Positions 6,678 through 30,417 of a DNA stretch of 64,000 nt are shown one piece after another (position 1 is the stretch's first letter; each line of letters begins with the position of its first letter). The notes beneath the pieces were generated by a model. It was not told the origin of the DNA and did no database searches. It saw nothing but the letters and a program-made list of their open reading frames with translations. The translations under genes were made by a program, and so were the position numbers. The DNA is from Pseudanabaena cinerea FACHB-1277. Its GTDB lineage: Bacteria > Cyanobacteriota > Cyanobacteriia > Pseudanabaenales > Pseudanabaenaceae. Location: positions 1 through 64,000 of the forward strand of contig NZ_JACJPY010000012.1 in assembly GCF_014696345.1 (NCBI RefSeq). The letters are read 5' to 3'.

Positions 6678-7214
6678 ACAATCCTCTATCTCCGTTTAAA
6701 CACCAGCAAAGGTCATGCTGCGATACAAGCAATGCTTGTACTTGGGAACAATGCTTGGGAACAAAGGTATGGTAAGGGCTGATTTAGTGGGGATCGGTAA
6801 TCCTTTGTAAATCCTTAACGAATTACCTATAAATTGCTAGGTTTGCTGATTTACTGCAAGTCAATACCTTGTAAAGTTATATATAGGTTATATTTGCTGT
6901 AGGTACAAAAATGCCGCAGCAATAAAAATAGCCATTTAGGGGATTAGTTAGGCTACCTAATGTTTCATAATTTTTTGCGGAATTTATTTTAGGTAGGTTA
7001 TTCAATAGTTCCAAGAAACTATGGTGAATTCACATCATGTTTTTTTACTGTATCCTTACTGATTTTCTATTGAATTTGCATAGCAACAAAAGCTATGTAA
7101 ATCAGTAAAAATCCTTATGTAGGAATGGAATTGTTGGTAATAGAAATATTTCTCTTGACATTTCCCCCATAAGGTCTACTCCGCATTAGACACCTTAATT
7201 TTCTGGAGATCTAT
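6678..7214. promoter_or_regulatory. Long divergent leader region gnd / 7215 gene
   Basis: 537 bases without a gene, between divergent genes. A direct repeat ACAATGCTTG lies near 6730-6760. Towards the plus-strand gene there is a nested stem-loop (listed separately) and a TTGACA box at 7155-7160 that could be a -35 element, although no good -10 follows at the usual distance. The 7215 gene has a good Shine-Dalgarno, GGAG at 7204-7207. Confidence 0.4.
7056..7108 (+). promoter_or_regulatory. Nested stem-loop in the leader of the 7215 gene
   Basis: A perfect 10-bp outer stem (TTACTGATTT at 7056-7065 with AAATCAGTAA at 7099-7108) encloses a 6-bp inner stem (CATAGC at 7079-7084 with GCTATG at 7092-7097). 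It lies 107 bases before the start codon, so it would be in the 5' leader if transcription starts upstream, or could be a DNA operator. It matches no riboswitch class I know. Confidence 0.45.
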
Positions 7215-8459
7215 ATGAGTAAAGCCAAAAAGACTGATTCATCCGACGACTCTAAGAGTAAATCCTCATCAAAGTCAGCATCCTCTAAGTTATCAGCCAA
7301 GGAGTCATCTAAAGAGTCACCGAAATTAGAGGTACTCAAGGTGATTGCCCCTAAATCTCCAGAAGTTTTAGAGGAGCATTCGACAATGCCCCATCAAGAC
7401 AAAACTGAGAATTTAGCCAGCTTCAATGCTCCAAAATCTGATGCTATCCCAGCCAAAGAGATTTTGCCTAGGTCAGATATAGCGCCTCTAAAATCTGCTC
7501 CTAAAAGCGAGTCAGCTTTAACTAGTCAATCCTTGAGTGGTTTATCAGCGAGCGCCCCTATGGGCATTCCGATCAAAAAGTTGGATCGGTCTTTTGAGCG
7601 AGGTGCTGTTAAGCGGGTGGGGAAAGATATAGATTATAGCGATCGCCACGAAGTCAATATTGATGAACAAAAAACTCAAGAGCCGAAGGTTTGTCTACAA
7701 CCGATTCCTGTGGCAACGGAGCCATTTCAATATCGGGCGATCGGGGTGATTAGTGGTCGTTATGTTGGTAACGAAGACAACTTTGCTAAGGGACATATTT
7801 TGACGAGCGATGGCGCTGAAGTTGATGCGGTATTGCTTGGGAAGGTGATTTCAGTCGCTAAAAAGCGCTTACAAAACGATCGCGATTATTTATGGGTGGT
7901 CTATCCCCGCACCAACGATAAAAGCGGCAAGCTTCATGTGCAGATTGCGGGAGTCTGGGCTCCCGAAGACTTGGGCAAGGCAGACATTCAAAATGACCCT
8001 GGTGTGGCTGATGGTTATTTCTCGATTAGGGGTGAAGTGTCTAGTCAATCTATAGAAGATAACCTAGTAATTGTCAAGATTCGGCGAATTGAGCAGAAAT
8101 TTGACAAGCAGAAGGGTAAGCCCACCAAAACCTACAGCAAGTTTAAGGTGAGGCTTACAGGACTATTGCCCACCGATGCTGTGGGGCAGTTTTGGTCGGT
8201 CAATGTGCAGCGCCAAGGCAATGTGCTTTCGGTGATTGATGGTGAGTTTGTGGGGATTGTGCCTGTTAAGGGCAAACGTAACCAGTATAAAGGTCGCCCT
8301 AGTGGTGGTAAGTTTGCTCCTCGCAAATTTGGCGATCGCCCCTATAAGCCCTTGGGCGGTGCTGGTGATGATTTTAGCTATCCCCCGCGCTCCCGCTCTA
8401 CCGAAGATCGCCCTCCTGTGCCGCGTCCAATTATCAAGCGCCGCGAACCAACGGAATAA
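7215..8459 (+). CDS. Cyanobacterial protein with disordered Ser/Lys tail, possibly nucleic-acid binding
   Basis: 414 residues. Residues 1 to about 170 are low complexity, rich in Ser, Lys and Pro, and probably disordered. A compact conserved-looking domain follows (about 175-345), starting at F-Q-Y-R-A-I-G-V-I-S-G-R-Y and containing L-W-V-V-Y-P-R-T. The C-terminal 60 residues are Arg/Gly/Pro-rich and basic, as in RNA-binding tails. I recall similar domains only as cyanobacterial proteins of unknown function, so RNA binding is an inference from charge. Good RBS (GGAG, 7 bases before ATG). Confidence 0.75.
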   Translation: MSKAKKTDSSDDSKSKSSSKSASSKLSAKESSKESPKLEVLKVIAPKSPEVLEEHSTMPHQDKTENLASFNAPKSDAIPAKEILPRSDIAPLKSAPKSESALTSQSLSGLSASAPMGIPIKKLDRSFERGAVKRVGKDIDYSDRHEVNIDEQKTQEPKVCLQPIPVATEPFQYRAIGVISGRYVGNEDNFAKGHILTSDGAEVDAVLLGKVISVAKKRLQNDRDYLWVVYPRTNDKSGKLHVQIAGVWAPEDLGKADIQNDPGVADGYFSIRGEVSSQSIEDNLVIVKIRRIEQKFDKQKGKPTKTYSKFKVRLTGLLPTDAVGQFWSVNVQRQGNVLSVIDGEFVGIVPVKGKRNQYKGRPSGGKFAPRKFGDRPYKPLGGAGDDFSYPPRSRSTEDRPPVPRPIIKRREPTE

Positions 8460-8509
8460 CCTAAAAGCATCAAAGCCCCATTGCAATTTTGATGTTCATG
8501 ATTTACAGC

Positions 8510-8531
8510 AGGTTGCAATGCAACCTGTTTT
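8510..8531 (+). terminator. Rho-independent terminator after the 7215 gene
   Basis: A palindromic stem AGGTTGC / GCAACCT (8510-8516, 8520-8526) is followed by GTTTTT. It lies about 50 bases after the stop codon. Confidence 0.7.
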
Positions 8532-8536
8532 TGGTT

Positions 8537-9043
8537 TTATGGCTGTAAGACCATGCTCCATTCTTTATTTTTGCTATCCCAAAAAGGGGCATCGGTTTCG
8601 CCGACAATATTGGGTCCCCAGTAAGAACGCGAACCATCGGTGGCGAAGGCAAAAATCACATCCCCTTTACCGATCGCAATTTTATAATTGGGCAATGACA
8701 AAATTAGTCCCTCCTTACCACCTTCAAAGGGCGCAAAGTCCCAGTTGAGTGGCTCGATCGCTTGCCAGACATTTTGAGAAGTAACTCGTGAAAACAGCAC
8801 TACCCGCACCGATCGCTCGGTACGATTGCCAACACGAAGACTGCCAATATTTTCGCCATCATTGAGATTAGGGCGAGCAAGTGTCGAGGGAAAAGGAGAG
8901 ACAATAATTTTGGGCGTGGGGTCTTCGGTGATGGCTTCTCGTTGTGGGGGATAAAACTTTTGCCAGACAGAAACCCCTGTCAGGGCGATGATCATGCCCA
9001 GACCGATGGAATATGCGTATTTGAGGTCGAGAGTGGGTATCAC
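8537..9043 (-). CDS. Membrane-anchored protein of unknown function
   Basis: 168 residues. A single hydrophobic segment at about residues 10-27 is followed by a Pro-rich linker and a beta-rich domain (about 60-168) that contains V-R-V-V-L-F-S-R-V and D-V-I-F-A-F-A-T-D-G. This suggests one N-terminal anchor with the domain outside the membrane. No recognised family. The start is a GTG at 9043 with no clear RBS; an in-frame ATG at residue 17 would cut into the anchor, so I keep the GTG. It lies 31 bases downstream of deoC on the same strand. Confidence 0.65.
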   Translation of the reverse strand: MIPTLDLKYAYSIGLGMIIALTGVSVWQKFYPPQREAITEDPTPKIIVSPFPSTLARPNLNDGENIGSLRVGNRTERSVRVVLFSRVTSQNVWQAIEPLNWDFAPFEGGKEGLILSLPNYKIAIGKGDVIFAFATDGSRSYWGPNIVGETDAPFWDSKNKEWSMVLQP

Positions 9044-9074
9044 GAGCTAGGCAACGGTACTTGTTATGTTTATT

Positions 9075-9767
9075 TTATCGCGATTTCGCGATCGTTGCCC
9101 CCTGCGATGTGCCGATGCGGGTTGCCCCTGCATTGATCAAAGCGATCGCCTGTTCCCTTGTTTTAATGCCCCCTGAAGCCTTTACGCCCACCCTGCCCCG
9201 AGAAAATTCCTTGAGAAATTTCACCATCTCCACAGTCGCGCCACCAGCCCAACCCGTCCCTGTTTTTAAAAAACTTACCCCTGCATCCATACAGATCTCA
9301 GCCGCCAATGCTTGCTCTTCGGGGCTAAGTTTACTGAGTTCCAAAATCGCTTTTACGGGAACCCCTGATTCTTGGCAAATCTGAGCAATATCTTGGTGCA
9401 GTAAGTTAGTTTGCCCACTTTTGAGCCAACCAAAATTAATCACCACATCTAACTCCATTGCACCATTTTCTACCGCCTCCATCGCTTCATAAAGCTTAAC
9501 ATTGCTAGTGGATGCACCACTAGGAAACCCAATCACAGTGCCAACCGCCACCTGTGATTTCAATAAATAATCTCTGGCGAGTTGCACATGACAGGGATAG
9601 ACACAGACGCTAGCAAAACCAAAGCGATCAGCCTCTGCACATAGGCGCTCAACCTCTTGAGGGTGGGCTTGAGGATCTAACAGAGCGTGGTCAATGTAAG
9701 GGCATGGATCGAGATCTTGTTCAGGCATGGGGCTTGGCAAATTAGAGTAACGGCAATCAGTCATCAT
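9075..9767 (-). CDS. deoC: Deoxyribose-phosphate aldolase
   Basis: A class I aldolase (TIM barrel) that interconverts 2-deoxyribose 5-phosphate with glyceraldehyde 3-phosphate and acetaldehyde, allowing DNA sugar salvage. Family marks are D-H-A-L-L-D-P near the start, E-L-D-V-V-I-N, the Schiff-base lysine in F-L-K-T-G-T-G-W and the second lysine in V-K-A-S-G-G-I-K. I chose the ATG at 9767 (231 residues), which fits the family length; the frame continues to a TTG at 9788. Confidence 0.95.
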   Translation of the reverse strand: MMTDCRYSNLPSPMPEQDLDPCPYIDHALLDPQAHPQEVERLCAEADRFGFASVCVYPCHVQLARDYLLKSQVAVGTVIGFPSGASTSNVKLYEAMEAVENGAMELDVVINFGWLKSGQTNLLHQDIAQICQESGVPVKAILELSKLSPEEQALAAEICMDAGVSFLKTGTGWAGGATVEMVKFLKEFSRGRVGVKASGGIKTREQAIALINAGATRIGTSQGATIAKSR

Positions 9768-9926
9768 AGTCCCATACAGATGATTCAAAATCTTGCCCCC
9801 TTAACTTTTATCGCCCCTAATGTCCTAATAAGACTAGCGACAGCTATATAATTACTTATTCATAGACATTAAGCCTGTCTTATTCTTGGCTTATCCAAAA
9901 TATAGGCAAATATTAAGCAAACATAT

Positions 9927-10952
9927 ATGCATATTTCTGAATTAGATGAACTAGAGGCTTCGGTTAGCGATCTGTTGACCATGGCAAAGGTGGAATTAGA
10001 GCAGAATCGGCTACAACAACAACGCGATCGCCAAATTCAAGAAGCTGTGTCACAAATTGAGGGTCGGTTAAAACCGTTACTTGCCAAGGTGGAACAGATG
10101 CTGGAGGAGTACACTCGCGAAGGTGGTAGTCCAGACAGTGAGACGAAACTAAAACTAGAAAAGAAAGCGGCGGACATTCGCCAAGAGATAGCTGAAGCGC
10201 CAGCCCTAGCATCCCAACTTGCCGATCGCCAGTTGATTCTCAGCGAAGAAAGATTGCTAGATGAAAGAATAACTGAACAAACAACACAATGGCGCTATGA
10301 ACTCAAAGCTGACCTATTGGAGATGATTGAAGAACAAAGTGATTTCTTTAGCGCCACCGATGCCGCGATCGCTGTGCGTGGTTACAGCAATGATCTCAAA
10401 GCGATCGGCGCTCTGGAGGAAGTGGTGGAGGCATTGATCAATCAAATAAACTCCCACAGTGAAGAGGGACCCGTTGCTAGGCTGCGTGGCAGTCATGAGC
10501 AAACTCTCACTTTCATTTATAACAAGGCTCTCGAAAATCGTTCTCGCGTCGATCGCGCCCCTGATGTCCAACCCAATACTCGCCACCGCAAGTCCGAAAA
10601 ACGCCCCGCTTTATACACCGATCTCAGTGGCAAGGTATTGGTATTTGGCGGTCATGATCGCTTACAAACAGCCGTCAAAAATCGTCTGCGTGACTCGATC
10701 ATCAATTTAATTTGGTACACAGAGCAGGACGGCTTGCAGTTGGCGGCGCAGGGGGAAACCCAAATTGCAGGATCAGATCTGATTATCATTGTGACGGGAT
10801 ATGCCAGCCATTCTCTTACAGAAAGGGCGATCGAAGCCTGTCGCCGAGCCAATAAGAGCTATGAAATTGTCAATACTACGGGTATGACCAGATTGTTAGA
10901 GGTGATCGAGTCAGGACTCAAGGCAAAACAACTAGCTAGGCATTGGAAATAA
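9927..10952 (+). CDS. Coiled-coil protein with C-terminal DUF2325 domain
   Basis: 341 residues. Residues 1-165 are highly charged and predicted coiled coil (many E, Q, R and L in heptads). Residues about 234-335 match DUF2325: V-L-V-F-G-G-H-D-R at the start of a Rossmann-like fold, D-L-I-I-I-V-T-G-Y-A-S-H-S in the middle and an A-C-R-R-A-N-K helix. The cysteine often seen after the D-x-x-V strand is missing. The function of this family is not known to me. A strong hairpin follows the gene. Confidence 0.75.
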   Translation: MHISELDELEASVSDLLTMAKVELEQNRLQQQRDRQIQEAVSQIEGRLKPLLAKVEQMLEEYTREGGSPDSETKLKLEKKAADIRQEIAEAPALASQLADRQLILSEERLLDERITEQTTQWRYELKADLLEMIEEQSDFFSATDAAIAVRGYSNDLKAIGALEEVVEALINQINSHSEEGPVARLRGSHEQTLTFIYNKALENRSRVDRAPDVQPNTRHRKSEKRPALYTDLSGKVLVFGGHDRLQTAVKNRLRDSIINLIWYTEQDGLQLAAQGETQIAGSDLIIIVTGYASHSLTERAIEACRRANKSYEIVNTTGMTRLLEVIESGLKAKQLARHWK

Positions 10953-10971
10953 GATATTCCCTTTCCACTCT

Positions 10972-11014
10972 AAGGATTAGTGGTGCGGCACAAAGCGCCG
11001 CACCGCTAATCCTT
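10972..11014. repeat. Long hairpin after the DUF2325 gene
   Basis: An 18-bp stem (10972-10989 with 10997-11014, one G.U pair) around the loop ACAAAGC. There is no T run directly after it, so it is either a terminator-like structure or a copy of a dispersed palindrome. The GGCGCAAAGCGCC-type loop is echoed at 57797-57833, and the AAGGATTAGCG motif near 38,052. Confidence 0.7.
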
Positions 11015-11161
11015 GGGCTTTAATGTCTATGTTTAGGCTGGGAAAGGAGTAAGAAACTGGATACCCGTATTTGGTATTTTGTATAGTAAGTAAGTTAAGA
11101 AATGACGCGATCGCTATAAAATCTAAGCAATCCTTCAAAAAACTGCCACCCTAAAACCTTG

Positions 11162-13678: not shown

Positions 13679-13693
13679 AGGGCTATTAACAAT

Positions 13694-13785
13694 TAGGACT
13701 CACGCAAGAGATATTGGAATCCTTATTCTAGAGTAGATGCAATTCATAAACTGCATCTACTCTTGGTCTTTTTGCGTAAGTCCTA
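13694..13785. mobile_element. MITE-like element, about 92 bp
   Basis: Terminal inverted repeats TAGGACTCACGCAA (13694-13707) and TTGCGTAAGTCCTA (13772-13785) differ at one position. An internal perfect 12-bp palindrome pairs 13730-13741 with 13752-13763. The TAGGACTTACGCAA end resembles termini of small non-autonomous elements common in cyanobacteria. It carries no coding sequence. A single TGACTTACGCAAAA end also lies near 17,219. Confidence 0.65.
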
Positions 13786-13921
13786 TGATTGACTGACACA
13801 TCTCACGCAAGGTAGGCAGGATGCCCGCGCTACAGTGATTCTAAATTTGTGGGTCAGGTATCATGGCTGAACAAGGATTTCCAACTCTTTTGTCAGTTAA
13901 TCAGGGCTAATTAGGGGCTGG

Positions 13922-14725
13922 TTAGTTAAACAACTTATTCATATTTTTCGCAACCCCAGCTATGTAATCATCCATATTGTGGTCATTGATACCGTCTGTT
14001 CCCTTTTCCCCTAGGGCTTCGAGCCTGCCATGAGCCCCATCAAGTAAGCGTCTCCAAATTGACAAATCGTCATGGAGGACTTGGTTTTTGTCAAGATACA
14101 GGAAATAACCACAGTCAACATAGCCCATCGCTCGCAAAGGCACACGGGGAACAGCATCATTGTTGTTGACAAAACGGAAATATTGTTTTGCCATGACTGT
14201 ATTCATGGCATCGGCAAACTTTTTGTCACCAACACGTGGTTGACCGAAGGTATACAGCCCAGCTACGGGATAGGCAAATTCTAGCATTTTCGCTACGCCA
14301 AGGGTGGCTAAGGCTGCGCCCAGACTATGGCCTGTAAACCAGATTGATTGATTGTTGTCTTGAAACTGGCGGATCGTGGAAATGACTTCTCGCCAAGCCG
14401 AGTCGAGTGAGCGAATGAAGCCAAAATGGACATTGCCAAGGGCATGGTAAGTGCGATCTAGTCTTATGTCTGACAGAATATCCTGTAATTTGCTGGGTTC
14501 AGTGCCACGAAAGGAAACAATGATTTTGTGGCGATCGCCAGTTACAAATGCTTCTGTACTGCTTGATGTAATCTCAATAAATCGAAATCTATCTGTTTGC
14601 AATTGATTAGTAACTTTAGCTTCTACAGAGGCTGCATCTAGGTAAGCCCACTTTGCACAATAGGCCAGGGTCAGTGCATTGTTGGGGCTGTAATTGGTCG
14701 TGTCATGATCGAAGGATAATGCCAT
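13922..14725 (-). CDS. Class 3 lipase
   Basis: A 267-residue alpha/beta hydrolase of the fungal lipase-like (class 3) family. The nucleophile elbow G-H-S134-L-G-A-A-L-A, the acid in N-N-N-D190-A-V-P-R-V-P and a candidate His249 in D-H-N-M-D-D-Y form a full triad. The oxyanion segment S-F-R-G-T-E is present. No signal peptide is visible. It lies 159 bases downstream of a lipoxygenase gene on the same strand, which suggests that it frees fatty acids for oxygenation. Substrate is inferred. Confidence 0.9.
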   Translation of the reverse strand: MALSFDHDTTNYSPNNALTLAYCAKWAYLDAASVEAKVTNQLQTDRFRFIEITSSSTEAFVTGDRHKIIVSFRGTEPSKLQDILSDIRLDRTYHALGNVHFGFIRSLDSAWREVISTIRQFQDNNQSIWFTGHSLGAALATLGVAKMLEFAYPVAGLYTFGQPRVGDKKFADAMNTVMAKQYFRFVNNNDAVPRVPLRAMGYVDCGYFLYLDKNQVLHDDLSIWRRLLDGAHGRLEALGEKGTDGINDHNMDDYIAGVAKNMNKLFN

Positions 14726-14884
14726 TGTTTTCTATTCCAAACTAATGTTTTTGTCTATCGTTCCTATGGTAACTAGGAAAAGTAAGGTAACGATTTTTGC
14801 TATGGATCTACAGGCAGATGGCTTAAACTGTCTGTAGATCGCTTGAGCGAAAATCGCTACAAATAGAGTCTGAATGGTGAAAAG

Positions 14885-16882
14885 CTAAACATTAATCAAG
14901 GCTCTAATATTACCGACATCATAGTTGAGGTCTGCAAATTCTTTTTTATAGCGTGCCAAAGCCGTTCTCAATTCAAGAACCACATCATCATCTTCATTCT
15001 TGAGAATGTAACCGTACTTGATTGCTGTTAGTACATTAACCATGTAGATCAGATTGGTGGATTCCAAAGTGTTAGGCGCGATCGCTGGATCATCTTCGCT
15101 ACCGAAACTACCGCCACGCAAAGCCAAGGAGTTGTAGAAAATCTCACCGCCTTCATCGGCTTGGGCATCATTGACCCAAGAATGCCAGAAAGTGATATGG
15201 AAGATCACATAGCGCACCAATTCTTTTAAATTATCAAGATCAGAAGCGCTAGGTTGATCAGTTGTAGTAATGGGGCGCGTTGCTTTGACTGTGCCATTAA
15301 CCGTTACCCTAGGAATCCCTGGTTTATCAAGCTCATGGCGATCGTACCATTCATACTCATCATCCTTGAGTTCTGGTAGGGGTTGATAAGCCACGCTATG
15401 CTCAATGATGTCATCGGATAAACGATGGATTTCTGCCCATTCCGCAATGATATCTTCCTGATTACTTTGAAAGAAGTTGTCAATCGCTTCAGTCAAGACC
15501 TGCCAATAAAGATTTGCGATCTTCGCAAACGTATGAGCTTCGCATAGGGGCTGACGAGGCTGCCAACCCTTCCAATCAAAGCTTGCCATCTGCTCCTTAC
15601 AAACCTGCACTACCGACGCTGGTGTCAAAGGTCCATTAGTTGTTACCAGTCCCACAGTTGGCGATACCAAAACCTCATCGGCGCGTTGATTGATATTCAC
15701 CAAGCTCTTTACATGGGGATACAACAGCAATCGCACTGGATTTTTGCGTAAATTACGGAAAGTGGCGATCGTGTACTGCTCCATCTGCAAATGGGCTTTG
15801 ATGTAATGCTCAGTCATTTCCGCCGCAAAAAAGCTGTTAGTGCGGAAAATGCGCTTGGCTTGTAGCCACTTATCGCCATCGGTAGGCTTGTAGGTGACAG
15901 GATCTTTGAGTGCAGAATAGGGAGCAAAGGAATCAGGGTAACGGCTCTGCACAGTAATTGCAGTAACCACTAGCTTGCCTTCTTTCAATTCAAAGAAAGC
16001 CTCCACATTATGAAGATCGTGATCGTCATCCTTTTCGTAGGCATCCCAATTAAATGTCACTTTCAACTGATTGGGATTATTCTTGTTGCGCTTAAACAAA
16101 GCAGGATTCATTCCATTCAGAACACGGGCAACAAAGTATTCATCACTTCTAGTGTAGCCAGGATTTTGACGATCTAAATTAATCGTCAGATTGGGAGGAT
16201 AATCGGCTTGGATTTCCTTGAGAGTTGGCTCATTAGGATTGAGGGTATTGGTAATAACGTGCTTAGCTTTAATTGGTACAAGGCTACTAGCAGCATCATA
16301 ACCATTTAGAGTGCGACCGACAGAATAATCGTCAGGAGTGCCTTCTAATTCACTAAAGAACAAGCGGGCAAAATGGCTATCTGGCTTGTAGAGCCAATAG
16401 GGAACTGTACGAGTGCCAAAATCATATTCCTTTTGAGTTACATTGTCTCCACCCTTGATTGTATAAGCAATGCGATAGGTGGAAACAATCTCATTGTCAT
16501 TGTCAAAGCTAATCCGATTATCCAAAAGTCGCAGTTCCAAATCAGGGGCATCTAAAAAGCCAGCCTTGGAAGGGTCATAGTAAATTGTAAATTCGCCATT
16601 GTAATCTGTCGTACCCACCCCCAAGTAGTCTCCAGGTGAACCGATATCACGATCCCAGAGTTCCAATTCAATGTTATGCAATGGCTTTTGCGTATCACCA
16701 AAAACCAACTTCCCCGTCACCTTAGATAGCTGTTCAAGAGGCTTGTCGAACTTCTGTTCATGGAGCCTCACAATGCTTTTCTTGGCTTTTTTTTCAGTCT
16801 TGCGCTTTCCTAAAGTGCTGTCGGCTAATTTAATGCCAAAGACTTGTTTGATTTCATCGACAATGGTTTTCAACTTAGACAT
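14885..16882 (-). CDS. Lipoxygenase-family protein with N-terminal transthyretin-like domain
   Basis: A 665-residue protein from ATG 16882, which has a GGAAA box 7 bases upstream; a TTG four codons earlier is less likely. Numbering here counts from that TTG. Residues about 57-125 look like a transthyretin/beta-sandwich domain (V-T-G-K-L-V-F, D-Y-N-G-E-F-T-I). Residues about 340-410 match the lipoxygenase core: W-L-Q-A-K, then H363-x4-H368, I-A-T-F-R-N-L and Y-P-H. The third iron ligand fits H571 in H-S-W-V-N, with N575 four on, as in the family's H-A-A-V-N. The chain ends in Val where most lipoxygenases end in Ile. Inferred to be an iron dioxygenase of polyunsaturated fatty acids. Confidence 0.85.
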   Translation of the reverse strand: MSKLKTIVDEIKQVFGIKLADSTLGKRKTEKKAKKSIVRLHEQKFDKPLEQLSKVTGKLVFGDTQKPLHNIELELWDRDIGSPGDYLGVGTTDYNGEFTIYYDPSKAGFLDAPDLELRLLDNRISFDNDNEIVSTYRIAYTIKGGDNVTQKEYDFGTRTVPYWLYKPDSHFARLFFSELEGTPDDYSVGRTLNGYDAASSLVPIKAKHVITNTLNPNEPTLKEIQADYPPNLTINLDRQNPGYTRSDEYFVARVLNGMNPALFKRNKNNPNQLKVTFNWDAYEKDDDHDLHNVEAFFELKEGKLVVTAITVQSRYPDSFAPYSALKDPVTYKPTDGDKWLQAKRIFRTNSFFAAEMTEHYIKAHLQMEQYTIATFRNLRKNPVRLLLYPHVKSLVNINQRADEVLVSPTVGLVTTNGPLTPASVVQVCKEQMASFDWKGWQPRQPLCEAHTFAKIANLYWQVLTEAIDNFFQSNQEDIIAEWAEIHRLSDDIIEHSVAYQPLPELKDDEYEWYDRHELDKPGIPRVTVNGTVKATRPITTTDQPSASDLDNLKELVRYVIFHITFWHSWVNDAQADEGGEIFYNSLALRGGSFGSEDDPAIAPNTLESTNLIYMVNVLTAIKYGYILKNEDDDVVLELRTALARYKKEFADLNYDVGNIRALINV

Positions 16883-17470
16883 GATAATTTCCAATAATGT
16901 TTATAGAAATGCCCTAGGAAATCTTTACTAAATAATCGTAAACCTCAAATCATGATCAGTGGACGAACACAATACCAAGTATATGTAAAATGTTGGTTCA
17001 CAAGGTTGGGGGGTAATTAACAAAAGCGCAGTCACACTTTTGTTAACTGAGATCAAATGTAATGAACCCCAATAACATAAAGGTTAACTTGTAAGGATAC
17101 GATAGTCAAGGAACTTTCTCGGTCTGTGATTTATTCAATTTACTACCTTCTGAAATTCTTTTCAGTTCACAATTCCTGAATTTACACTTTTGAGATAGAA
17201 CTCTCTAAATAATTTTATGACTTACGCAAAACATACTCAAAGTAGCCAAAAGCAGAGGAGATTTACGAATTGCCTCTGCTCTGCCTTTGCCACAACTCAA
17301 CTGAAAAACTCAATACTTATCGCGGTTTACACCTTGGTACGAACAAGGTGCAAACAGAAGACAAAAAATATGGATTTGATGGTTTGCAAGTTGTCAAGGA
17401 CAACTTGCAAACCGCGATAACCAAAATCTGCGTTGATATACAATAAGCTGTCCCATAAGTTATTTGTTTT
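16883..17470. promoter_or_regulatory. Divergent region between lipoxygenase and methyltransferase genes
   Basis: Nearly 590 bases between divergent genes. It holds the palindromic element at 17317-17420 and a lone TGACTTACGCAAAA end near 17,219 like that of the MITE at 13694. The short frames here are made of the repeat and do not look coding. No clear promoter boxes were seen. Confidence 0.5.
17317..17420. repeat. Compound palindromic element (MITE-like)
   Basis: Perfect 12-bp ends TTATCGCGGTTT (17317-17328) and AAACCGCGATAA (17409-17420) enclose two hairpins: CACCTTG/CAAGGTG (17330-17336, 17344-17350) and a perfect 15-bp stem (17381-17395 with 17399-17413). The structure suggests a mobile non-coding repeat. 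Confidence 0.7.
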
Positions 17471-18484
17471 ATGCCTCCTCAATTGCCTCTCCATATCCAA
17501 ATGATGCAGATGATTACTGGGTACTGGGTATCCCAGTGTATTTATGTAGCTGCAAAATTAGCGATCGCTGATCATCTCACAACACCACAAACTTATGAGG
17601 TTCTCGCTCTCAATACAGGAGCAAATCCTAAGGCTCTATATCGAGTTCTCCGCGCTCTAGCCAGTGTGGGCATCTTTACGGAAACCGAGGCGGGAACCTT
17701 TGCGATGACACCCCTTGCCGAGCTTTTACGCAGTGATAGTCCCCAAACACTTTGTCCCACGGCAATTATGATGGGTGAGCCAGAACATTATCAGTCATGG
17801 GGAAATCTACTCCATAGCGTGAAAACAGGTGAACCAGCTTTTGATCAGTACTTTGGTAAAGGCGTGTTTGAACATTTCGGAACTAATCCTGAAGCCGCTA
17901 AGATTTTTGAGCGCTGTATGGATAACTTCTCACAGGTCGAGTTGCGTGCGATCGCCCCAACCTATGATTTTTCTGAGTTCAAAGTATTAGTTGATGTGGG
18001 TGGAGGTTATGGCGAATTATTAGCCACGATCTTGCAGAAACATCCTGATAGCCAAGGGATTTTGTTTGATGAGAAATATGTGATTGATAATGCAACTACG
18101 ACTTTAGACAAACATGGTATTAGCGATCGCTGTCAACTTGTGAGTGGTAGCTTTTTTGAATCTGTTCCCAGTGGTGGTGATGTCTATTTGCTCAAGCATA
18201 TTGTCCATGATTGGGATGATGAGAGGGCGATCGCCATTTTGCGAAATTGTCAGCAAGCAATGAATGCCGATAGCAAAATTCTGGTCATAGAGCAGGTTGT
18301 GCCTGCGGGAAATAATCCTGCGGCGGCGAAGCTGTTGGACATCAATATGCTGGTCATGTGTCCTGGTGGGAAAGAGCGTACTGCTTCAGAATATGAATAC
18401 ATCTTTGAGCAAGCTGGTCTAAAGATCCTGCGTATCATTCCCACTGCTGAAGATATTCATCTCATTGAGGGATGTAAAGCCTGA
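17471..18484 (+). CDS. SAM-dependent O-methyltransferase with dimerisation domain
   Basis: 337 residues. The N-terminal winged-helix dimerisation domain (about 10-95) is followed by a class I SAM fold with motif I V-D-V-G-G-G-Y-G-E and the H-I-V-H-D-W-D-D motif. That is the arrangement of the family 2 O-methyltransferases such as hydroxyneurosporene and plant-type enzymes. The catalytic base expected in that family aligns with the His before D-W-D-D. The substrate is unknown. It is divergent from the lipoxygenase gene, and a strong terminator follows. Confidence 0.88.
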   Translation: MPPQLPLHIQMMQMITGYWVSQCIYVAAKLAIADHLTTPQTYEVLALNTGANPKALYRVLRALASVGIFTETEAGTFAMTPLAELLRSDSPQTLCPTAIMMGEPEHYQSWGNLLHSVKTGEPAFDQYFGKGVFEHFGTNPEAAKIFERCMDNFSQVELRAIAPTYDFSEFKVLVDVGGGYGELLATILQKHPDSQGILFDEKYVIDNATTTLDKHGISDRCQLVSGSFFESVPSGGDVYLLKHIVHDWDDERAIAILRNCQQAMNADSKILVIEQVVPAGNNPAAAKLLDINMLVMCPGGKERTASEYEYIFEQAGLKILRIIPTAEDIHLIEGCKA

Positions 18485-18637: not shown

Positions 18638-21600
18638 ATGATATTAGACAATAGTAAAGATCGCAAAGTATACGAATGGATTGAGAATTATATAGAGCAA
18701 GGCGCGATCGATGTCGTTACAGGCTATTTTACGATCGCCACTTTAGCTTATATATCTAACAAAATTAATCAGCAAACCTCAAAGTTTCGGCTAGTGCTTG
18801 GGGATATTGTCAATTTTGATCAAGAAGAAAATCGACCGCTAGATTTGCTTAATGAAAATATTACGATTGAGTCGGCTTTGAAGCTGAATCGTTTAGCACA
18901 GCAAGCTGTGGAATTTTTGAAGCAAGATAAAGTTTTAGCAAAGACTTTAGAGCCGAACTTTTGTCATGCCAAGTGTTATATTTTCCAGCCGACAAATAAT
19001 GACGATCGCAATAAGTATTTTATTACGGGTAGCTCGAATCTGACTGAAGCAGGGATTGGACTCAAAAAAACAAGTAATTTGGAACTAAATATTGCGGAAA
19101 CAGGAAATAATAACCAATATAAGGAGATTTTAGCGTGGTTTGAGGATCTCTGGCAGAAACCGCAGGCTCATAGTCAGAAAACGATTTTGGCTAAGGATGG
19201 CACGCGCAAAAAGGTTGATTTTAAGCAATATCTGATTGAGGCGATCGCGAAAATATTTATTGAATATTCGCCACGGGATATTTACTACAAGATTTTATTT
19301 GAGCTATTTGGCAATCAGATTCTGGAAATTGAGAATGATCCAGAATTTAATCGTCAAGTGGGAAGATTAGAAAATACGGCGATTTTTAATGCTCTGTATG
19401 ACTTTCAGAAAAAAGGTGTTTTGAGTTTAATCAGGATGCTTCAGAAATATGATGGGGCTATCTTAGCGGATGCGGTGGGTTTGGGTAAAACTTGGAGTGC
19501 TTTGGCGGTAATGAAGTTTTTCCAGATGCAGGGGCGAGAGGTGATCTTGCTTTGCCCTAAGAAGCTAGAAGACAACTGGAGACGCTATAAAGAGGATCAA
19601 GAATCTAAGTTTGAATCCGACAAGCTCAAGTTTTTTATGCGTTTTCATACGGATATGAATAGTGGGCGTTTAGAGTCCTATAGCGATCGCGCTGATAAGT
19701 TTTTTAGAGATGATAAACCTAAGCTCTTTGTGATTGACGAAAGCCATAACTTGCGGAATGACAAGGCAAATCGCTATAAGTTTCTGGTGGAGCAGATTTT
19801 GCAGAAAAACCAAGATGTCAAGGTTTTATTGATATCGGCAACGCCGATCAATAACTCTCTGAATGATGCTAGAAACCAGTTTAAGTTGATGGTGCAGGGG
19901 GATGTGCATGGCTATGATGCAAAATTGGGTGTCAGAAATATTGATTATTCGTTTAAGCAAGCCCAGACAATGTTTAATGAATGGCGCAAAGATGACAATC
20001 CAAAAATTGGAGACTTTATAAAAAAACTTTCAGGTAATGATTTCTTTCGATTGACTGACTCTTTGCTCGTGGCAAGAACTCGCAAGATGGTTGAGAGTCA
20101 GGAGACGGATTTAATATTTCCTGTCAAAAATAAGCCCGTCAACTTGTTTGTAACCCCACATCAGCTTGGTAATTTTGAAACCTTTGAGGAGTTGTTTGAG
20201 CATTTCCCACCGATGCTGTCAGGCTATCAACCAGCCTTTTATTTGGATGATGGTTTAGATAATAAATCTGGCGTAAAAAAAGATGTATTGCGGGATGAAA
20301 AATTGCGCGATCGCTTTCTAGTCAAGATGATTTATATCCTGATGGTGAAGCGGTTAGAGTCTTCTTGGTTCTCATTTTATTCAACAGTTGAGAAAATTAG
20401 AGATCATCATCAAAATGCTCTAGAGAAAATTAAGGCATATCAAGCAAATAAGGCGAAACCTGTAATCTTAGAAAATGATATGGATAATTTAGATGATGAT
20501 CAAAATGACGATGAATTTACGGAAGCGGTTGAGCAATATATGTTGCAATTTACGTTAGGCAAAAAACGCCCGATTAGTATTGCAGAAATTGATCGAGTTG
20601 GTAACTTAGATAAATTTAAAGAGGATCTGAAACAAGATTTAGATGCGCTAGATAAGCTTGCGGTTAACTTACAAAAGTTTGCTGTAAAACTTGACAAAGA
20701 AATTGCGCCAACTTCCAAGAAGTCGGATCGGCTGAAATCCTGTGATGACAAGTTGAAGGCTCTGATTGCAGAGATTGTCAAAAAGCGAAAATCAGGCATA
20801 AATAACCATAATCCCAAGGTGGTGATCTTCACGGTCTATCGAGATACGGCAATATATTTGTATGAGCAGCTACGCGCTAGAGGCTTTGAGAAGATGGCGA
20901 TCGCATCGGGGACAGGCTCATACTCAGATGATAGCGATAGCAAACAGTCTATGGAGGCGATTCTTGAAAGATTTGCGCCTTACACAAAGTTGTTTTCTGA
21001 AAAGGAATGGAATTTTAATTCAGAGAAACAAGGGTTAGAAGCTTTTGCGGAATGGAAGGATTGGATCGCAGAAAACCATCCTGATACGCACCTGAAGCTA
21101 ACTAAGCCTATTGATATCTTGATTGCCACCGATGCTCTAAGTGAGGGACAAAACTTACAGGATGCAGATATGGTAATTAATTACGACATTCACTGGAATC
21201 CTGTGCGAATTATTCAGCGTATGGGACGGATCGATCGCCTTGGTAGCCCTAATTCCCAAATCTTCGGGATTAACTTCTGGCCGTCGGACAATATTAATTC
21301 TTACCTCAATCTACAAGGACGGATCGAGCAACGGATGGCGGCGATGAAGTTGGCTGGGTCAGAGGTCGATCCGCAGTTTTCGGATAGCTTTGCCAAGATG
21401 TCTCATGATGAAGATTTTGACCGCAAGATGAACGATCGCATGATGGAGCAGATGCAAATTACTTGGGATGACATTGAGGTAAGCGATCAAGGGTTAGGCT
21501 TTGATAGTTTGTCTTTGGAGCGCTATCGACAGGATTTACTCGCTGAGTTTAATCGCGACAAGGACAAATATCGGCAGATGCCCAAGGGTGTCTATTCGGG

Positions 21601-22072
21601 ATTTATCGGAGATATGGCGACAGGCGATCGCAATGGCATTGTCGCTTTACTTGGCTATCCTGCGAAGCCATCGAAGAAACTTGAGCATCAATATCAGGTT
21701 TTTGATTTGATCTATATCGATAAATCGGGCAAGTTAGTTTTAAACAATCAAAAGGAAGTTTTAGATTTTCTGACTGTAAATAAAGACAAAGAGCGATTTG
21801 TACCTTCTGCTGTGGATCGGGGTGAACCGTTAGCGATCGCTGAGTTAGTAACTGCGTTGAAAACTTGGCTGAGTAGTCAGGCGGTGCAAACTGAGGTGAT
21901 GGAGGATGGCACGACTAAGCAGACGATGGGAACGGCGGCGCGGGATCTGTTAGGGAAAATTAAAAAAGGTAATCAATTAGCGTTGGATGTGATCAAGCAA
22001 GATGGTAATGTTGATCAGAAATTTCAGGTTGATAAGTTTGACTTAGTGGCTTGGGTGTTGGTGAGTAAATAG
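18638..22072 (+). CDS. PLD-nuclease / SNF2-type helicase, defence effector
   Basis: 1144 residues. The N-terminal domain (about 1-180) is a phospholipase D-type nuclease with H110-A-K112, then G-S-S-N134. A superfamily 2 helicase of SNF2/RapA type follows: motif I A-V-G-L-G-K284-T, motif II D367-E-S-H, motif III S-A-T-P, motif [12 protein letters not shown] and motif [10 protein letters not shown]. The chain resembles DISARM DrmD and NgoAVII-type restriction parts, with both activities in one protein. It opens the locus that contains the Eco57I-type methyltransferase and is inferred to be the ATP-driven restriction subunit. Confidence 0.85.
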
Positions 22073-22177
22073 TCTGAATCATAGATTAGACGGATTACGC
22101 AGATTTCACAGATTTTTTGGATTAGAATTAAGTTAAAATCCGTGAAATCTTTTAATCTGTATAATCCGTGATTCAGA
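22073..22177. repeat. Imperfect palindromic repeat, copy 1
   Basis: Starts with TCTGAATC directly after the helicase TAG and ends with GATTCAGA. The left half (GGATTACGCAGATTTCACAG) is the imperfect reverse complement of the right half. A related copy lies at 23488-23634. It carries no gene. Confidence 0.75.
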
Positions 22178-22204
22178 TGCTTTTTTGAAGAGGAGACAAA
22201 AATT

Positions 22205-22354
22205 ATAGAAAGCTTTAATCTGACTGAACACGCTCGTTATTAAATTCAAAAGCGCATACAGGATTTTGGCGATCGCTGGTTGCGGGTAGTTGTAAATCCT
22301 AATGTTGAGCCTAACCGAGTTATGACCATCTTTTTTGATAGGAGAGTAAAATGA
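22205..22354 (+). pseudogene. Broken DUF4258 toxin-like gene
   Basis: The frame reads L-T-E-H-A-R-Y, an in-frame TAA at 22241-22243, then I-Q-K-R-I, and ends with W-L-R-V-V-V-N-P-N and F-F-D-R-R-V-K before TGA overlapping the ATG of the next gene. Both ends fit DUF4258, but the middle of the domain is missing and a stop interrupts the frame. The usual partner, DUF2283, follows intact with an ATGA overlap. It is judged dead by deletion and nonsense. Confidence 0.7.
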
Positions 22355-22551
22355 AACTGATTGTACATAAAGAAGATGATGCGTTGTATTTGAGCTTGGA
22401 TGATTCAGATGTGATTGAGTCTGAAGAGGTGAGTGATGGCATTATTTTGGATTACAACGCTGAGGGAAAAATTATTGGGATTGAGATGCTGTATATCAGT
22501 AAGCGTAGTCCTAATTCTTTACAGAAAATTTTGTTGGAAACGAGTGCTTAA
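22351..22551 (+). CDS. DUF2283 protein, orphaned antitoxin-like partner
   Basis: 66 residues with the DUF2283 pattern: D-D-A-L-Y-L-S-L near the start, then G-I-I-L-D-Y-N-A-E-G-K-I-I-G-I-E. Its ATG overlaps the stop of the broken DUF4258 frame, and GGAGAG lies 5 bases upstream. DUF2283 genes often follow DUF4258 toxins, so this may be the surviving half of such a pair. A second full DUF2283 gene and a third 3' scrap lie within 1 kb. Confidence 0.75.
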   Translation: MKLIVHKEDDALYLSLDDSDVIESEEVSDGIILDYNAEGKIIGIEMLYISKRSPNSLQKILLETSA

Positions 22552-22584
22552 AATAAAAAAGTTAATTAAATTGAGTAAGTAACT

Positions 22585-23193
22585 ATGACTATTGCAGTTA
22601 CAGAAAATATCCGATCGCTTCATGATGTGGAGACAAAGTTGGGTTTATGCCGATCGCCTGATCCAGATTTTTTTAAGGAGTGGCAAGGCGAGTTTGCGGA
22701 ATTAGTTGATATTGAAAAAACAACTTTGGATCGGATTAAGCAGTCATATTTGTATCATGTTAATGAAGGCTTTTTGTCTGAGGGAACAGTAAATTTGTTG
22801 ATGGTTTCACCATTACTATTTTTGGCGGGTTTTCTGGAGTCTCCTTTTAGTTTGCGAAGTGAAGAGTCGGTTGAAATTAGCGATCGCGGTGATAATGTTA
22901 CTTATCACGGCAGGATTGATGCGTTAGTTTTGAATAACAATTTATGGATCGTTTTAATTGAGGCAAAGCGTTCTAGCTTTTCGTTTTTAGTTGCCCTACC
23001 ACAGGCTCTCGCTTATATGATGGCAAGTCCAAATGGAGATAAGCCAACCTATGCAATGGTTACTAATGGTGATCATTTTATGTTTGTTAAGTTGCAAGAT
23101 TCGCAATATGATCTTTCTGATGATTTTTCACTGTTTAAGCGATCGCATAATGAACTTTATTCTGTTTTGCAAATTCTAAAATCATTTAAGTAA
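22585..23193 (+). CDS. Stand-alone PD-(D/E)XK nuclease domain (HsdR N-terminal-like)
   Basis: 202 residues. The core has the full nuclease motif: D112 in G-R-I-D-A-L, E126-A-K128 on the next strand, and Q140 in L-P-Q-A-L-A-Y, as in type I restriction R-subunit N-termini. No helicase part is attached. Similar short proteins are common in cyanobacteria, and their targets are not known to me. It sits between the helicase and methyltransferase genes. Whether it cuts DNA for this system is inference. Confidence 0.75.
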   Translation: MTIAVTENIRSLHDVETKLGLCRSPDPDFFKEWQGEFAELVDIEKTTLDRIKQSYLYHVNEGFLSEGTVNLLMVSPLLFLAGFLESPFSLRSEESVEISDRGDNVTYHGRIDALVLNNNLWIVLIEAKRSSFSFLVALPQALAYMMASPNGDKPTYAMVTNGDHFMFVKLQDSQYDLSDDFSLFKRSHNELYSVLQILKSFK

Positions 23194-23213
23194 GTAGATT
23201 GTTGGAATTAAAC

Positions 23214-23244
23214 GTAGGATGTGTTAGCGATAGCGTAACGCATC
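23214..23244. repeat. Half copy of the GTTAGCGATAGCGTAACGCA repeat
   Basis: Thirty-one bases from GTAGGATGTG to ACGCATC, matching the left arm of the full palindromic repeat at 55821-55903. It sits directly before the DUF2283 scrap, so the insertion may have truncated that gene. Confidence 0.75.
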
Positions 23245-23251
23245 TCCTTAG

Positions 23252-23275
23252 ATTTTGTTAGAAACGAGTGCTTAA
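23252..23275 (+). pseudogene. 3' scrap of a third DUF2283 gene
   Basis: Twenty-four bases nearly identical (one change in the first 22) to the last codons and stop of the DUF2283 gene at 22528-22551 (encoding I-L-L-E-T-S-A). Only the tail remains, cut at the repeat half-copy. Confidence 0.6.
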
Positions 23276-23283
23276 ACTAACTG

Positions 23284-23487
23284 ATGAAAATCAAGTTTGA
23301 TAAAGAGAGTGATACGCTGATGATTATTTTCCGAGAGGTACGAATTAGGGAGTCAGATGAGATCCGTCCAAATGTGATTGCGGATTTTGGGTATGACGGG
23401 AAGCTGGTGAGGTTGGAGATTTTGGATGCTCAGAGTGTTGTGGAAAATACCCATGAGTTTTTATATTCGTTTGAGGAGGCAAAATAG
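23284..23487 (+). CDS. DUF2283 protein, second copy
   Basis: 67 residues with the DUF2283 signature: K-E-S-D-T-L-M-I at the start, then P-N-V-I-A-D-F-G-Y-D-G-K-L-V-R-L-E-I-L-D-A. It differs clearly from the copy at 22351, so this is not a fresh duplication. No toxin frame lies beside it. Its TAG stop abuts the second palindromic repeat. Function unproven. Confidence 0.7.
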   Translation: MKIKFDKESDTLMIIFREVRIRESDEIRPNVIADFGYDGKLVRLEILDAQSVVENTHEFLYSFEEAK

Positions 23488-23634
23488 TCTGAATCTCGGA
23501 TCATATGGATTACGCAGATTTTTAGGATTTTAAGACTAATTAAAGGATTTTCTTGATTGCAAGCTGTATGATAAAAATAAGCAAAACTTATGAAATCCGT
23601 GAAATCCTTTAATCCGTATAATCCGCGATTCTGA
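23488..23634. repeat. Imperfect palindromic repeat, copy 2
   Basis: Same ends as the copy at 22073-22177 (TCTGAATC to GATTCTGA), with a longer, less symmetrical centre. It starts immediately after the DUF2283 TAG and stops 7 bases before the methyltransferase ATG, so it forms nearly the whole leader of that gene. Confidence 0.7.
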
Positions 23635-23641
23635 CCTTGAT

Positions 23642-26600
23642 ATGAATTTAACCATCTTTAATCAATTAGATTTTTTGCCTGCTTTGCGCGAGTTTTTTAA
23701 GGCGTTGCAAGTGCCGATCGCCTCTGTGACGGATGCGCCGATCGCTGCTGAAAATATTCTAGAAAGCAATTATAAGGATAATGAGTCTTTTCGGTTGATT
23801 GATGAGGTTTATTTTTTGGGGATGGTGGATGATGCGGCGTTTCGAGGTGGTAAGAGTTTAGATATTTCGCAGATTAAGTCGGATTATGATGGGATTGTTA
23901 TTTTTGGGGTGACGCTCAAAGTTCGAGAAGGGGGGCGCGATGGTGGTTTGTTGCCAACGCGATCGCAGCTTGCGGAAATATCCCGTGCTTTTAATCGAGA
24001 GTTTTGTTATACGCCTGTGGTGGTGGTGTTTAAGTATGCAGGTGCTGATGGGGAATATCTAGCGTTTGCGAATACGGAGCGGTCTAAGTTTAAGCGAAAT
24101 CAGGAAGGAGAAAAGGCTGGCAAAGTAACGCTGTTACGGGATATTGATATTAACAATACCCATTCGGGACATAAGAAAATTTTGGCGGATCTCAAGATTC
24201 CTAATGCTGGTAAGGATCGGGTGGATTCCTTTGACAAGTTATATAAATATTGGCAAAAGGTACTTGATGTCAGTCTGTTAAATAAGCAGTTTTACAAAGA
24301 GGTTTCGACTTGGTATTTTCATGCTTGTAAGCAGGTGTTTTTTCCGAAGGATGCAAAGCCAGACAATCAGGAGAGCTTAATTCGGTTAATTACGCGATTG
24401 ATGTTTGTGTGGTTCCTTAAGGAGAAGGGATTAGTGCCTGATGCTTTGTTTGATAAAGAAGATATTCAGTCTATTCTCAAGAGTTTAGAGCCACAGGAAA
24501 GCACCTATTACAAGGCGATTTTGCAGAATTTGTTTTTTGCGACTTTGAATACAGAGGGTAAGCGCGAGTTTATTAAGGAGAGTTCGGGCGGACGTAACTC
24601 GCAGCACATGGTACATAATGTGTTTCGCTATAAAGACTATTTTCAGGAGTCTGATCAGATCATCAAAAAATATTTTGCTGATATTCCTTTTTTAAATGGT
24701 GGTTTGTTTGAGTGTTTGGATGTCCCTTCAGAAAAAGACAAACCTGATACGGCAAAACGTATTGATGGGTTTAGCAATCACCCCTCTAATGTATTATCTG
24801 TCCCCAACGAGTTGTTTTTTGGTGAGTTGCAAGATGTAGATCTCAATGCCGATTTTGGGACGAGTCGCAAGAAGTATCAGGTACGCGGCTTAATCGAAAT
24901 CTTTAAGAGTTATAAGTTCACCATCGCTGAAAATACGCCTTTTGAGGAAGATGTGGCGCTCGATCCTGAGTTGTTAGGTCAGGTGTTTGAGAACTTATTG
25001 GCGGCTTACAATCCTGAAACACAGACGACAGCTAGGAAGCAGACGGGGTCTTTTTATACGCCTCGTGAAATTGTTAATTACATGGTGGATGAGAGTTTGA
25101 TAGCTTATCTCAAGAATCAGTTGTTAAAGGAAAATGTGGTTTTTCTGGAGGTGGGTAAGAGGCAGACAGATATTTTTGGGAATGAGTATAAGGCTGGTCA
25201 GTTAACGATTCAGGAGCAGTTAAATCAAAATCCCTTTAAGGGTAAAGAGGCTGAGTTAGAGCAGAAGTTGCGACAGTTAATTTCCTTTGATGATGTGAAT
25301 CCTTTTGCGGGTGATGAGGCTGTGCAAGAGCGTTTAATTAAGGCTTTGGATAATTGCAAGATTCTCGATCCTGCTTGTGGGTCGGGAGCTTTTCCGATGG
25401 GTGTTTTGCAGAAAATGGTACATATTCTGGCAAAGCTCGATCCGCATAATGAGCGATGGAGAAAACAACAAAAGGAGAAGGCGATCGCGCCTTTATTACA
25501 GGATATTCAATTTGCGGAAAAAATTAGTTATGAGGAGGCAAGAGACAAGGCGATCGCTCAACTAAAAGAACGTTTGGCACAGATTGAGTCAAGCTTTGAA
25601 AATGAGATGGATTATCCGCGTAAGTTATTTTTAATCCAAAATTGCATTTATGGGGTGGATATTCAGCCTATTGCTTTACAAATTGCGAAATTGCGCTGTT
25701 TTATTGCGCTAATCGTTGAGCAGAAGGTGGATGATACTAAGCCTAATACAAATCGAGGTATTTTGCCTTTGCCAAATTTGGAAACAAAGTTTGTGGCGGC
25801 GAATACGCTGATTGGCATTGAGAAAAATCAGCAGTTGTCGATTTTTGATACACAGGAAATCCAAGCGAAACAGGTGCATTTAGAGAAGTTGCGGCGAGAA
25901 CATTTCTTTGCGAGGTCTTTGGCAACGAAGCGCAAAAAACGCGATGAGGATGAGCAGTTATGTCGGGAGATTGCCGAGATTTTGTTACGGAACAAGTTCC
26001 CAAACGTGGATCTGTTGCAAAATTGGAAGCCCTATGATCAAAATGCGTCTGCAAATTTCTTCGATCCTGAGTGGATGTTTGGAGTTGCCGATGGTTTTGA
26101 TATTGTGATTGGGAATCCGCCTTATGTGAGACAGGAGCAAATTAAGGAACTCAAACCAACTTTACAAAAGCAATTTTCTTGTTATACGGGTGTTGCTGAC
26201 TTATTTGTTTATTTCTTTGAGCGTGGTTATCAGTTGCTAAATACTGGCGGCGTTTTGAGTTATATCTGCTCGAATAAATATTTCCGTTCTGGTTATGGTG
26301 AAAAGTTGCGCGATTTTCTGGGTAAAAATACGACAATTCAGCAGCTTGTTGATTTTGGGGATACGGATGTTTTTACAGCTATTGCCTATCCTAGCATTAT
26401 TTTATTTAGTAAGGAAAAGGCTAGTAAGGACGCAAGGTTAAAGGCGCTTTCTTGGAAGCAAACGGAAACATTAAACGAGTTTCCAACAGTGTTTGATGCT
26501 CAAAATTTCTTGATGCCACAATCTGCACTAAAAGCTGATGGTTGGCGATTAGAAAACACACAGGTTTTAGATTTATTGACTAAGTTACGAAATGCTGGCA

Positions 26601-29004: not shown

Positions 29005-29102
29005 TTTACATACAATGGGAACAGGAAATAGACGAAATAGTAGCGCGTCTGTATGGATTGAGTGACGAAGAGATGGAGATAATCAGAGGGAACACGGATT
29101 AA
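29001..29102 (+). pseudogene. C-terminal scrap of a type IIG/PglX-like methyltransferase
   Basis: Thirty-three codons in frame after the ATPase gene read E-I-D-E-I-V-A-R-L-Y-G-L-S-D-E-E-M, then stop. The I-D-x-x-V-x-x-L-Y-G-L-x-x-E-E pattern is the usual last helix of Eco57I/PglX methyltransferases. The large methyltransferase upstream lacks this form of ending, so this is probably debris from another enzyme. A GTG overlaps the ATPase stop, so translation as a 33-residue peptide cannot be excluded. Confidence 0.5.
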
Positions 29103-29225
29103 GATTTAAATCCCATGTAGGGGGATAGCATTCCCGCCACAATTTATGATTTTTTAAACCATCTCAAATTGGGAATGCTTTGCCCAAAACCTCACAACGC
29201 AGCCACAATTTATCTGTTTGCTTGC

Positions 29226-29570
29226 TTAAACATAAAGCAACTGATTGGCAATTTCATCAGCAGTCATTGAGTCCAACAAAATCATGACCCGATTGACAAT
29301 TTCATAGGGACTTTTTTGAGGAACTACGATAATTCCTGAATGAGTGAGATTGGCTTGCCCGTACTGCAAATGTAAATCTTCGTAATCAACTCGGTTGTGT
29401 GTCAAAATGCAACGGTCATTAGCAGCAGCATAGGCTAATTGCTCTTGGTCGGATTTACCCAACATCTCGCTCTTTTGAACTGTGACAGCATCAATACCAC
29501 GCGATCGCAGTAGAGTTGCAACCATGTTATTCATATCTTCATCAAGATATAAGCTGGCAAATATTTTCAC
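29226..29570 (-). CDS. DUF5615 PIN-like toxin, second module
   Basis: 114 residues. It starts with the family strand Y-L-D-E-D-M-N, then L-L-R-S-R-G-I-D-A-V-T and the T-H-N-R-V-D-Y acidic motif, a better match to the DUF5615 consensus than the copy at 547. Its ATG overlaps the stop of the DUF433 gene by ATGA. Inferred RNase toxin. Confidence 0.85.
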   Translation of the reverse strand: MKIFASLYLDEDMNNMVATLLRSRGIDAVTVQKSEMLGKSDQEQLAYAAANDRCILTHNRVDYEDLHLQYGQANLTHSGIIVVPQKSPYEIVNRVMILLDSMTADEIANQLLYV

Positions 29571-29869: not shown

Positions 29870-29930
29870 AGCTATCTTTATACTTAGCTTCTAAACAATT
29901 CTATCACTGACAATCTAGGACACGATAACC

Positions 29931-30338: not shown

Positions 30339-30417
30339 ACAGATTTTTAGAGTCTAAAATCATTCATAATGGGAGCTTACATCAGCCCCCACATTTACAA
30401 CTAGACCTATTCCTGTA

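Follow-up and report, generated by a model that had tools for sequence, protein, structure and literature searches.

The lipoxygenase (LOX) gene and the class 3 lipase gene that adjoin each other in the window, i.e., the whole 64,000-nucleotide stretch of cyanobacterial DNA that was analysed, probably make up a small module that forms oxylipins from polyunsaturated membrane lipids. The support for this module is the recurrent linkage of an acyl hydrolase gene with a dioxygenase gene, not the conservation of this exact pair. Of greatest interest is a finding made beyond the window: at loci encoding LOXs of the same type, the CspLOX1 type, genes for a Tle1-like phospholipase, a P450 and the LOX follow one another in this order.

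The lipoxygenase and lipase genes of the window

14885..16882, (-) strand: CspLOX1-type iron lipoxygenase (match to PDB 5ek8, E 9e-302, residues 6–669; Pfam Lipoxygenase, E 5e-10)
16712..16882 (approximate limits), (-) strand: N-terminal helical segment and linker of the LOX, aligned to the CspLOX1 N terminus, with a putative membrane role here
14726..14884, (-) strand: intergenic stretch of 159 nt with a long imperfect hairpin (MFE −43.5 kcal/mol, z −6.39)
13922..14725, (-) strand: class 3 lipase (Lipase_3), 267 aa (Pfam E 8e-29; triad S134/D190/H249; fold match)

The open reading frame of the LOX spans 14885–16894 on the (-) strand, with the ATG at 16882 as the probable start and an in-frame TTG at 16894; the protein comprises 665 aa from this ATG, or 665–669 aa depending on the start. 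The match to the Pfam Lipoxygenase family (PF00305) covers a short stretch only, with a score of 38.9 bits that exceeds the curated cut-off of 23.6 bits. The alignment to PDB 5ek8, which we take to be CspLOX1 of Cyanothece sp. PCC 8801, is full-length and includes the N-terminal segment, with an identity of 64%. H359, H364, H570 and N574 of CspLOX1 as well as its C-terminal Ile all have aligned counterparts in the window LOX, the last one being Val. The full-length match with all iron ligands thus bears out the "lipoxygenase-like" gene of the first-pass annotation. The window LOX resembles CspLOX1 in full-length identity, N-terminal segment, iron ligands and size. In contrast, Gly401 of CspLOX1 is replaced by Ala405, the active-site clamp Ile617 by Met, and the C-terminal Ile by Val.

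CspLOX1 is a 9R-LOX with a solved structure, which accepts free linoleic acid; 5MED is CspLOX2, shorter and distinct from CspLOX1 (PMC5437038). A Gly/Ala switch directs the oxygen between the two ends of the pentadiene, and Gly401Ala CspLOX1 was left with a small share of its activity and formed 6% of the bis-allylic 11-hydroperoxide (PMC5437038). Since Ala405 of the window LOX stands in place of this Gly401 (the Coffa position), i.e., the Gly expected for the 9R type is absent, its product may not be pure 9R, as judged from single residues. In the alignment, Ala occupies the Coffa position throughout the clade of the window LOX, and Gly is found in L100, L101 and L179. No close relative of the window LOX was found in 25 other genomes of the genus, which carry at most remote LOX genes, and neither plasmids (E up to 1e-20) nor viral contigs yielded a LOX match.

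The lipase lies directly downstream of the LOX on the same strand across a gap of 159 bp, as the first-pass annotation had it. Its GxSxG motif reads GHSLG, and the Ser/Asp/His triad of PF01764 is present, with S134, D190 and H249 invariant across ten aligned relatives and also present in another alignment of 11. The AlphaFold model, which is weak at residues 76–88, 192–202 and 228–248, has the class 3 lipase (alpha/beta hydrolase) fold, with a Foldseek E of 5.5e-12 to fungal feruloyl esterases/lipases. Pfam, alignment and predicted fold therefore agree with the class 3 lipase and the triad that had been assigned to this gene. No signal peptide was apparent on inspection by eye. The sole close relative of the lipase, 78% identical, comes from a same-genus genome and has no LOX nearby. 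A second Lipase_3 match in the window's own genome (L003, G000:C100:28357-28722) lies within an 838-aa frame on a contig other than that of the LOX.

Gene neighbourhoods of the closest lipoxygenase relatives

The gene order around the LOX was compared at 14 loci outside the window, whose LOXs share at least about 60% identity with that of the window. No Lipase_3 gene was found beside these close relatives in the flanks examined. Of the 14 loci, 10 have a gene for a Tle1-like phospholipase (PF09994, best E 9e-82) upstream of the LOX and in the same orientation, a count that includes L005, where the gene is split, and L181, where a C-terminal relic is left. A P450 gene is present at 8 of the 14: six of these P450s belong to one family, that of L097 is of another kind, and L181 has only a relic. 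At loci with both genes, the P450 gene lies downstream of the Tle1-like gene and upstream of the LOX. L009 differs in having a catalase-like gene ahead of the LOX. The Tle1 and P450 queries gave 0 matches in 25 control cyanobacterial regions (427 kb; 9–20 kb each), which had been taken for other reasons and are not random; likewise, the 14 LOX loci come from related species and are not independent samples. The P450s match ordinary bacterial P450s, and an identity with CYP74 is not implied. Those of L096, L100 and L101 carry about 130–160 extra N-terminal residues, a domain that resembles a beta-trefoil. Decaying remains upstream of an intact LOX were observed at L181:10160-10510 (Tle1-like and P450) and L005:6860-7878 (Tle1-like).

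The LOX of L101 is identical to 5ek8 at every compared residue, and therefore the CspLOX1 gene itself stands in the order Tle1-like phospholipase, P450 and LOX (L101:5982-10952; intervals of roughly 40 and 175 bp), whereas the window LOX gene precedes a Lipase_3 gene. The same order is found in L004, L007, L096 and L100. DUF2235 is the older name of PF09994, and no paper naming both lipoxygenase and DUF2235 was found in the literature searched; nor was a description of the Tle1–P450–LOX order found in that literature, which lacked the primary CspLOX1 paper.

In the tree, the window LOX falls in a supported clade of eight (99/100); at most loci of its other members, a Tle1-like gene, a P450 gene or both are present. 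No Tle1-like or P450 gene was matched within the 64-kb window, no relics of Tle1, P450 or LamG-LOX were found in its gaps, and a search of the own genome, made with no positive control, gave no PF09994-like match. The parsimonious reading of these sequences is that the ancestor had a hydrolase–P450–LOX arrangement, of which the lineage of the window would have kept the LOX without its partners, beside a Lipase_3 gene.

A separate LOX branch, 38–40% identical, was observed in L102, L178 and L182. In this branch, His replaces the expected Asn ligand and Ser the expected C-terminal Ile/Val, and the LOX gene has a MIF/tautomerase-like gene and a further conserved gene as neighbours. The members of the branch are possibly not ordinary iron LOXs.

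Linkage across cyanobacteria and the setting of the pair

The coordinates of all Lipoxygenase and Lipase_3 matches were compared in 386 genomes of the phylum. The two are at most 5 kb apart in 3 of the 57 LOX-bearing genomes (the window's own, G072 and G068), with about 0.1 cases expected (P about 1e-4, or about 4e-3 for G072 and G068 alone with the window left out; the gene counts behind this estimate were taken by hand from the match tables). The cluster of G072 and G068 is also present in G510.

L091:1253-7330, L092:5571-11748, L175:4046-9987 and L006:7950-14565: LamG–LamG–LOX fusion and shorter LOX, with an N-extended lipase in three of the four

These clusters of three Nostocaceae (L091 in G072, L092 in G068 and L175 in G510) consist of a protein of 921–925 aa that combines a LOX domain with two LamG-type domains, a 455–468 aa LOX and, last and on the same strand, a lipase with an extra N-terminal region, whose reading frame is broken in G068. 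In L006, a Microcoleaceae metagenome-assembled genome, a LOX 81% identical to that of the window is directly followed by the LamG-LOX and LOX genes and then the contig end. In all four genomes with a lipase (the window's, G072, G068 and G510), it lies downstream of the LOX on the same strand. The LamG-LOX-linked lipases and the window lipase do not group together in the tree, where the only supported neighbour of the latter is the 78% identical same-genus relative; descent from the lipases of the LamG-LOX clusters, which the tree does not support, was therefore rejected, and the two lipase–LOX pairings are probably independent.

A Lipase_3 gene is also linked to a putative dioxygenase of another kind. 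At L193 (G438, 5694–10087), it is followed on one strand by a COX-like animal-haem-peroxidase gene and a catalase-related gene, a possible hydrolase–dioxygenase–lyase cassette, given the activities predicted for its proteins. Thus, genes for acyl hydrolases repeatedly stand next to those for fatty-acid dioxygenases in cyanobacteria, and they have apparently been recruited several times. The first-pass annotation had proposed a compact oxylipin module, with conserved linkage in other cyanobacteria as one test of it. What stands of this is the hydrolase–LOX principle, carried by other parts (Tle1-like and P450 genes beside the same LOX type, Lipase_3 beside LamG-LOX/LOX pairs); the exact pair of a CspLOX1-type LOX and a Lipase_3 was seen in one genome only and is not conserved.

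The surroundings of the window pair bear on how the two genes came to be adjacent.

13690..13790, no strand: short MITE-like palindromic repeat next to the lipase gene, with the ends GGACTCACGCAAGA and TTTTGCGTAAGTCC; like stretches occur in same-genus genomes
17087..17231, no strand: dispersed repeat next to the LOX gene, with GACTTACGCAAAA at its end; present in many copies in other genomes of the genus
17471..18484, (+) strand: divergent small-molecule O-methyltransferase (PF00891, E 3e-49), judged to be outside the module

The GACTTACGCAAAA repeat ends are inverted on either side of the pair (13770–13790 versus 17211–17231; 21-nt arms, 86% complementary), and the pair looks like part of an accessory region. 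Short dispersed repeats with many copies across other genomes of the genus were observed at 10955–11051 and 17087–17213. A foreign base composition of the pair was rejected, as GC and GC3 of both genes match their neighbours. The intergenic hairpin stands alone, with no T-run terminator found between the LOX and lipase genes, and could attenuate, process or separate transcription.

With repeats on both sides, the adjacency could stem from rearrangement, and the LOX and the lipase could be functionally unrelated neighbours, the lipase serving general lipid turnover and the LOX acting alone. That the exact pair was seen once, that the same-genus relative of the lipase has no LOX beside it, and that 25 same-genus genomes have no close relative of the LOX are consistent with this explanation, as are the inverted repeat ends, the strong hairpin in the 159-bp gap and the defence genes that begin close by at 18638. 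However, two acyl hydrolase families recur beside cyanobacterial LOX genes, the proximity of LOX and Lipase_3 exceeds chance even when the window is excluded, and the lipase lies downstream on the same strand, matching the LamG-LOX clusters. We therefore regard a chance neighbourhood as unlikely, though by no means negligible, and prefer the oxylipin module.

The region at 18638–31185 on the (+) strand is defence-like and contains an SNF2 helicase with a PLD domain, an HSDR_N protein, a type IIG-like methylase/restriction protein, an AAA ATPase and a DUF1828 protein (PDC-M24B). As the pair adjoins this helicase/restriction-modification region, and as the lipase is replaced elsewhere by a member of the Tle1 family, whose name refers to secreted phospholipases (Pfam), the pair might be thought of as a membrane-damaging weapon or defence effector against competitors, grazers or infected cells. 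However, no secretion signal was seen by eye, no adapter or immunity gene was found, and the LOX relatives have no recurrent defence neighbours, which makes such a role very improbable.

A divergent O-methyltransferase gene is indeed present, as had been noted at first pass. Its suggested part as a product modifier and third member of the module did not hold up: the gene is beside none of the LOX relatives examined and is also present in same-genus genomes without this LOX, and it was therefore left out of the module.

Proposed mechanism and its relation to known pathways

From the gene identities, catalytic residues, gene order and recurrent linkage, we infer a mechanism, with its activities, substrate, order of action, co-expression, function and predicted product. 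The LOX would be held at the membrane by its N-terminal helix and insert O2 into linoleoyl or linolenoyl chains, and the class 3 lipase would free the acyl chain, either before the LOX (supplying free fatty acid) or after it (releasing the hydroperoxide). With no haem enzyme adjacent to the pair, the pathway would stop at free hydroperoxy or hydroxy fatty acids. The pair would thus be a reduced variant of a modular arrangement of an acyl hydrolase, a dioxygenase and a hydroperoxide-using haem enzyme; at the closest LOX relatives, the hydrolase would be Tle1-like and the haem enzyme a P450, and in the window Lipase_3 would stand in for the hydrolase.

The lipase-first order of the first-pass annotation is one of two possibilities. 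In the other, the LOX would oxygenate esterified membrane chains and the lipase would have an editing function, clipping off the chains that have been oxidised. Newie and co-workers reportedly found in 2016 that CspLOX1 is active on a phosphatidylcholine, which counts for this reversed order. CspLOX1 binds membranes via its N-terminal helix, which is credited with drawing substrate directly from the membrane (PMC6164985, PMC10889196), and as this segment is conserved in the window LOX, the latter may oxygenate intact lipids, with the lipase acting before or after. However, free linoleic acid is a CspLOX1 substrate (PMC5437038). Editing of oxidised membrane lipids is a serious alternative, to which we give a lesser but real chance; the module described above, with either order of action, remains the preferred reading.

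In plants, the jasmonate route leads from a class 3 plastid lipase (DAD1 type) through a 13-LOX to a CYP74. The window pair resembles this route in combining a Lipase_3 acyl hydrolase with a LOX, and the LOX relatives add a P450, but the window holds the first two steps only. CYP74 enzymes are treated in PMC6164985. In catalase–LOX fusions of the Acaryochloris marina type (PMC11719350), the LOX is likewise joined to a second pathway enzyme. Fusions of this kind of about 822 aa were found at L093–L095. Here, however, the fused partner is a hydroperoxide-using enzyme, whereas the window has a separate lipase beside the LOX, and the LOX domains of the fusions are about 27–30% identical to the window LOX. 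Nostoc punctiforme has a linoleate 10S-dioxygenase and a catalase-related hydroperoxide lyase (PMC13049297), a bacterial dioxygenase with a follow-up enzyme, and it is genes of these two families that the Lipase_3 gene precedes at L193. In contrast to the window, which has no catalase-related gene, this system uses a COX-like haem dioxygenase rather than a LOX.

Cyanobacterial fatty-acid dioxygenase genes may belong to interchangeable cassettes (an acyl hydrolase, either Tle1-like or a class 3 lipase; a LOX or COX-like dioxygenase; and a hydroperoxide-using P450 or catalase-related haem enzyme). CspLOX1 would then catalyse a single step in a full prokaryotic oxylipin pathway, and the window pair would represent a cassette with the lipase exchanged and no P450; we consider the chances of this broader proposal to be about even.

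CspLOX1 has so far been studied as a lone enzyme, with its structure solved and its pathway not. The natural Gly/Ala split in the CspLOX1-type group provides a ready series for relating the Coffa position to the product. The recurrent hydrolase–P450–LOX order points to two candidate partners of CspLOX1 and opens a bacterial counterpart to the lipase–LOX–CYP74 route of plants to direct testing. If different hydrolase families have indeed been recruited repeatedly beside the same kind of LOX, acyl release would seem to be a required step.
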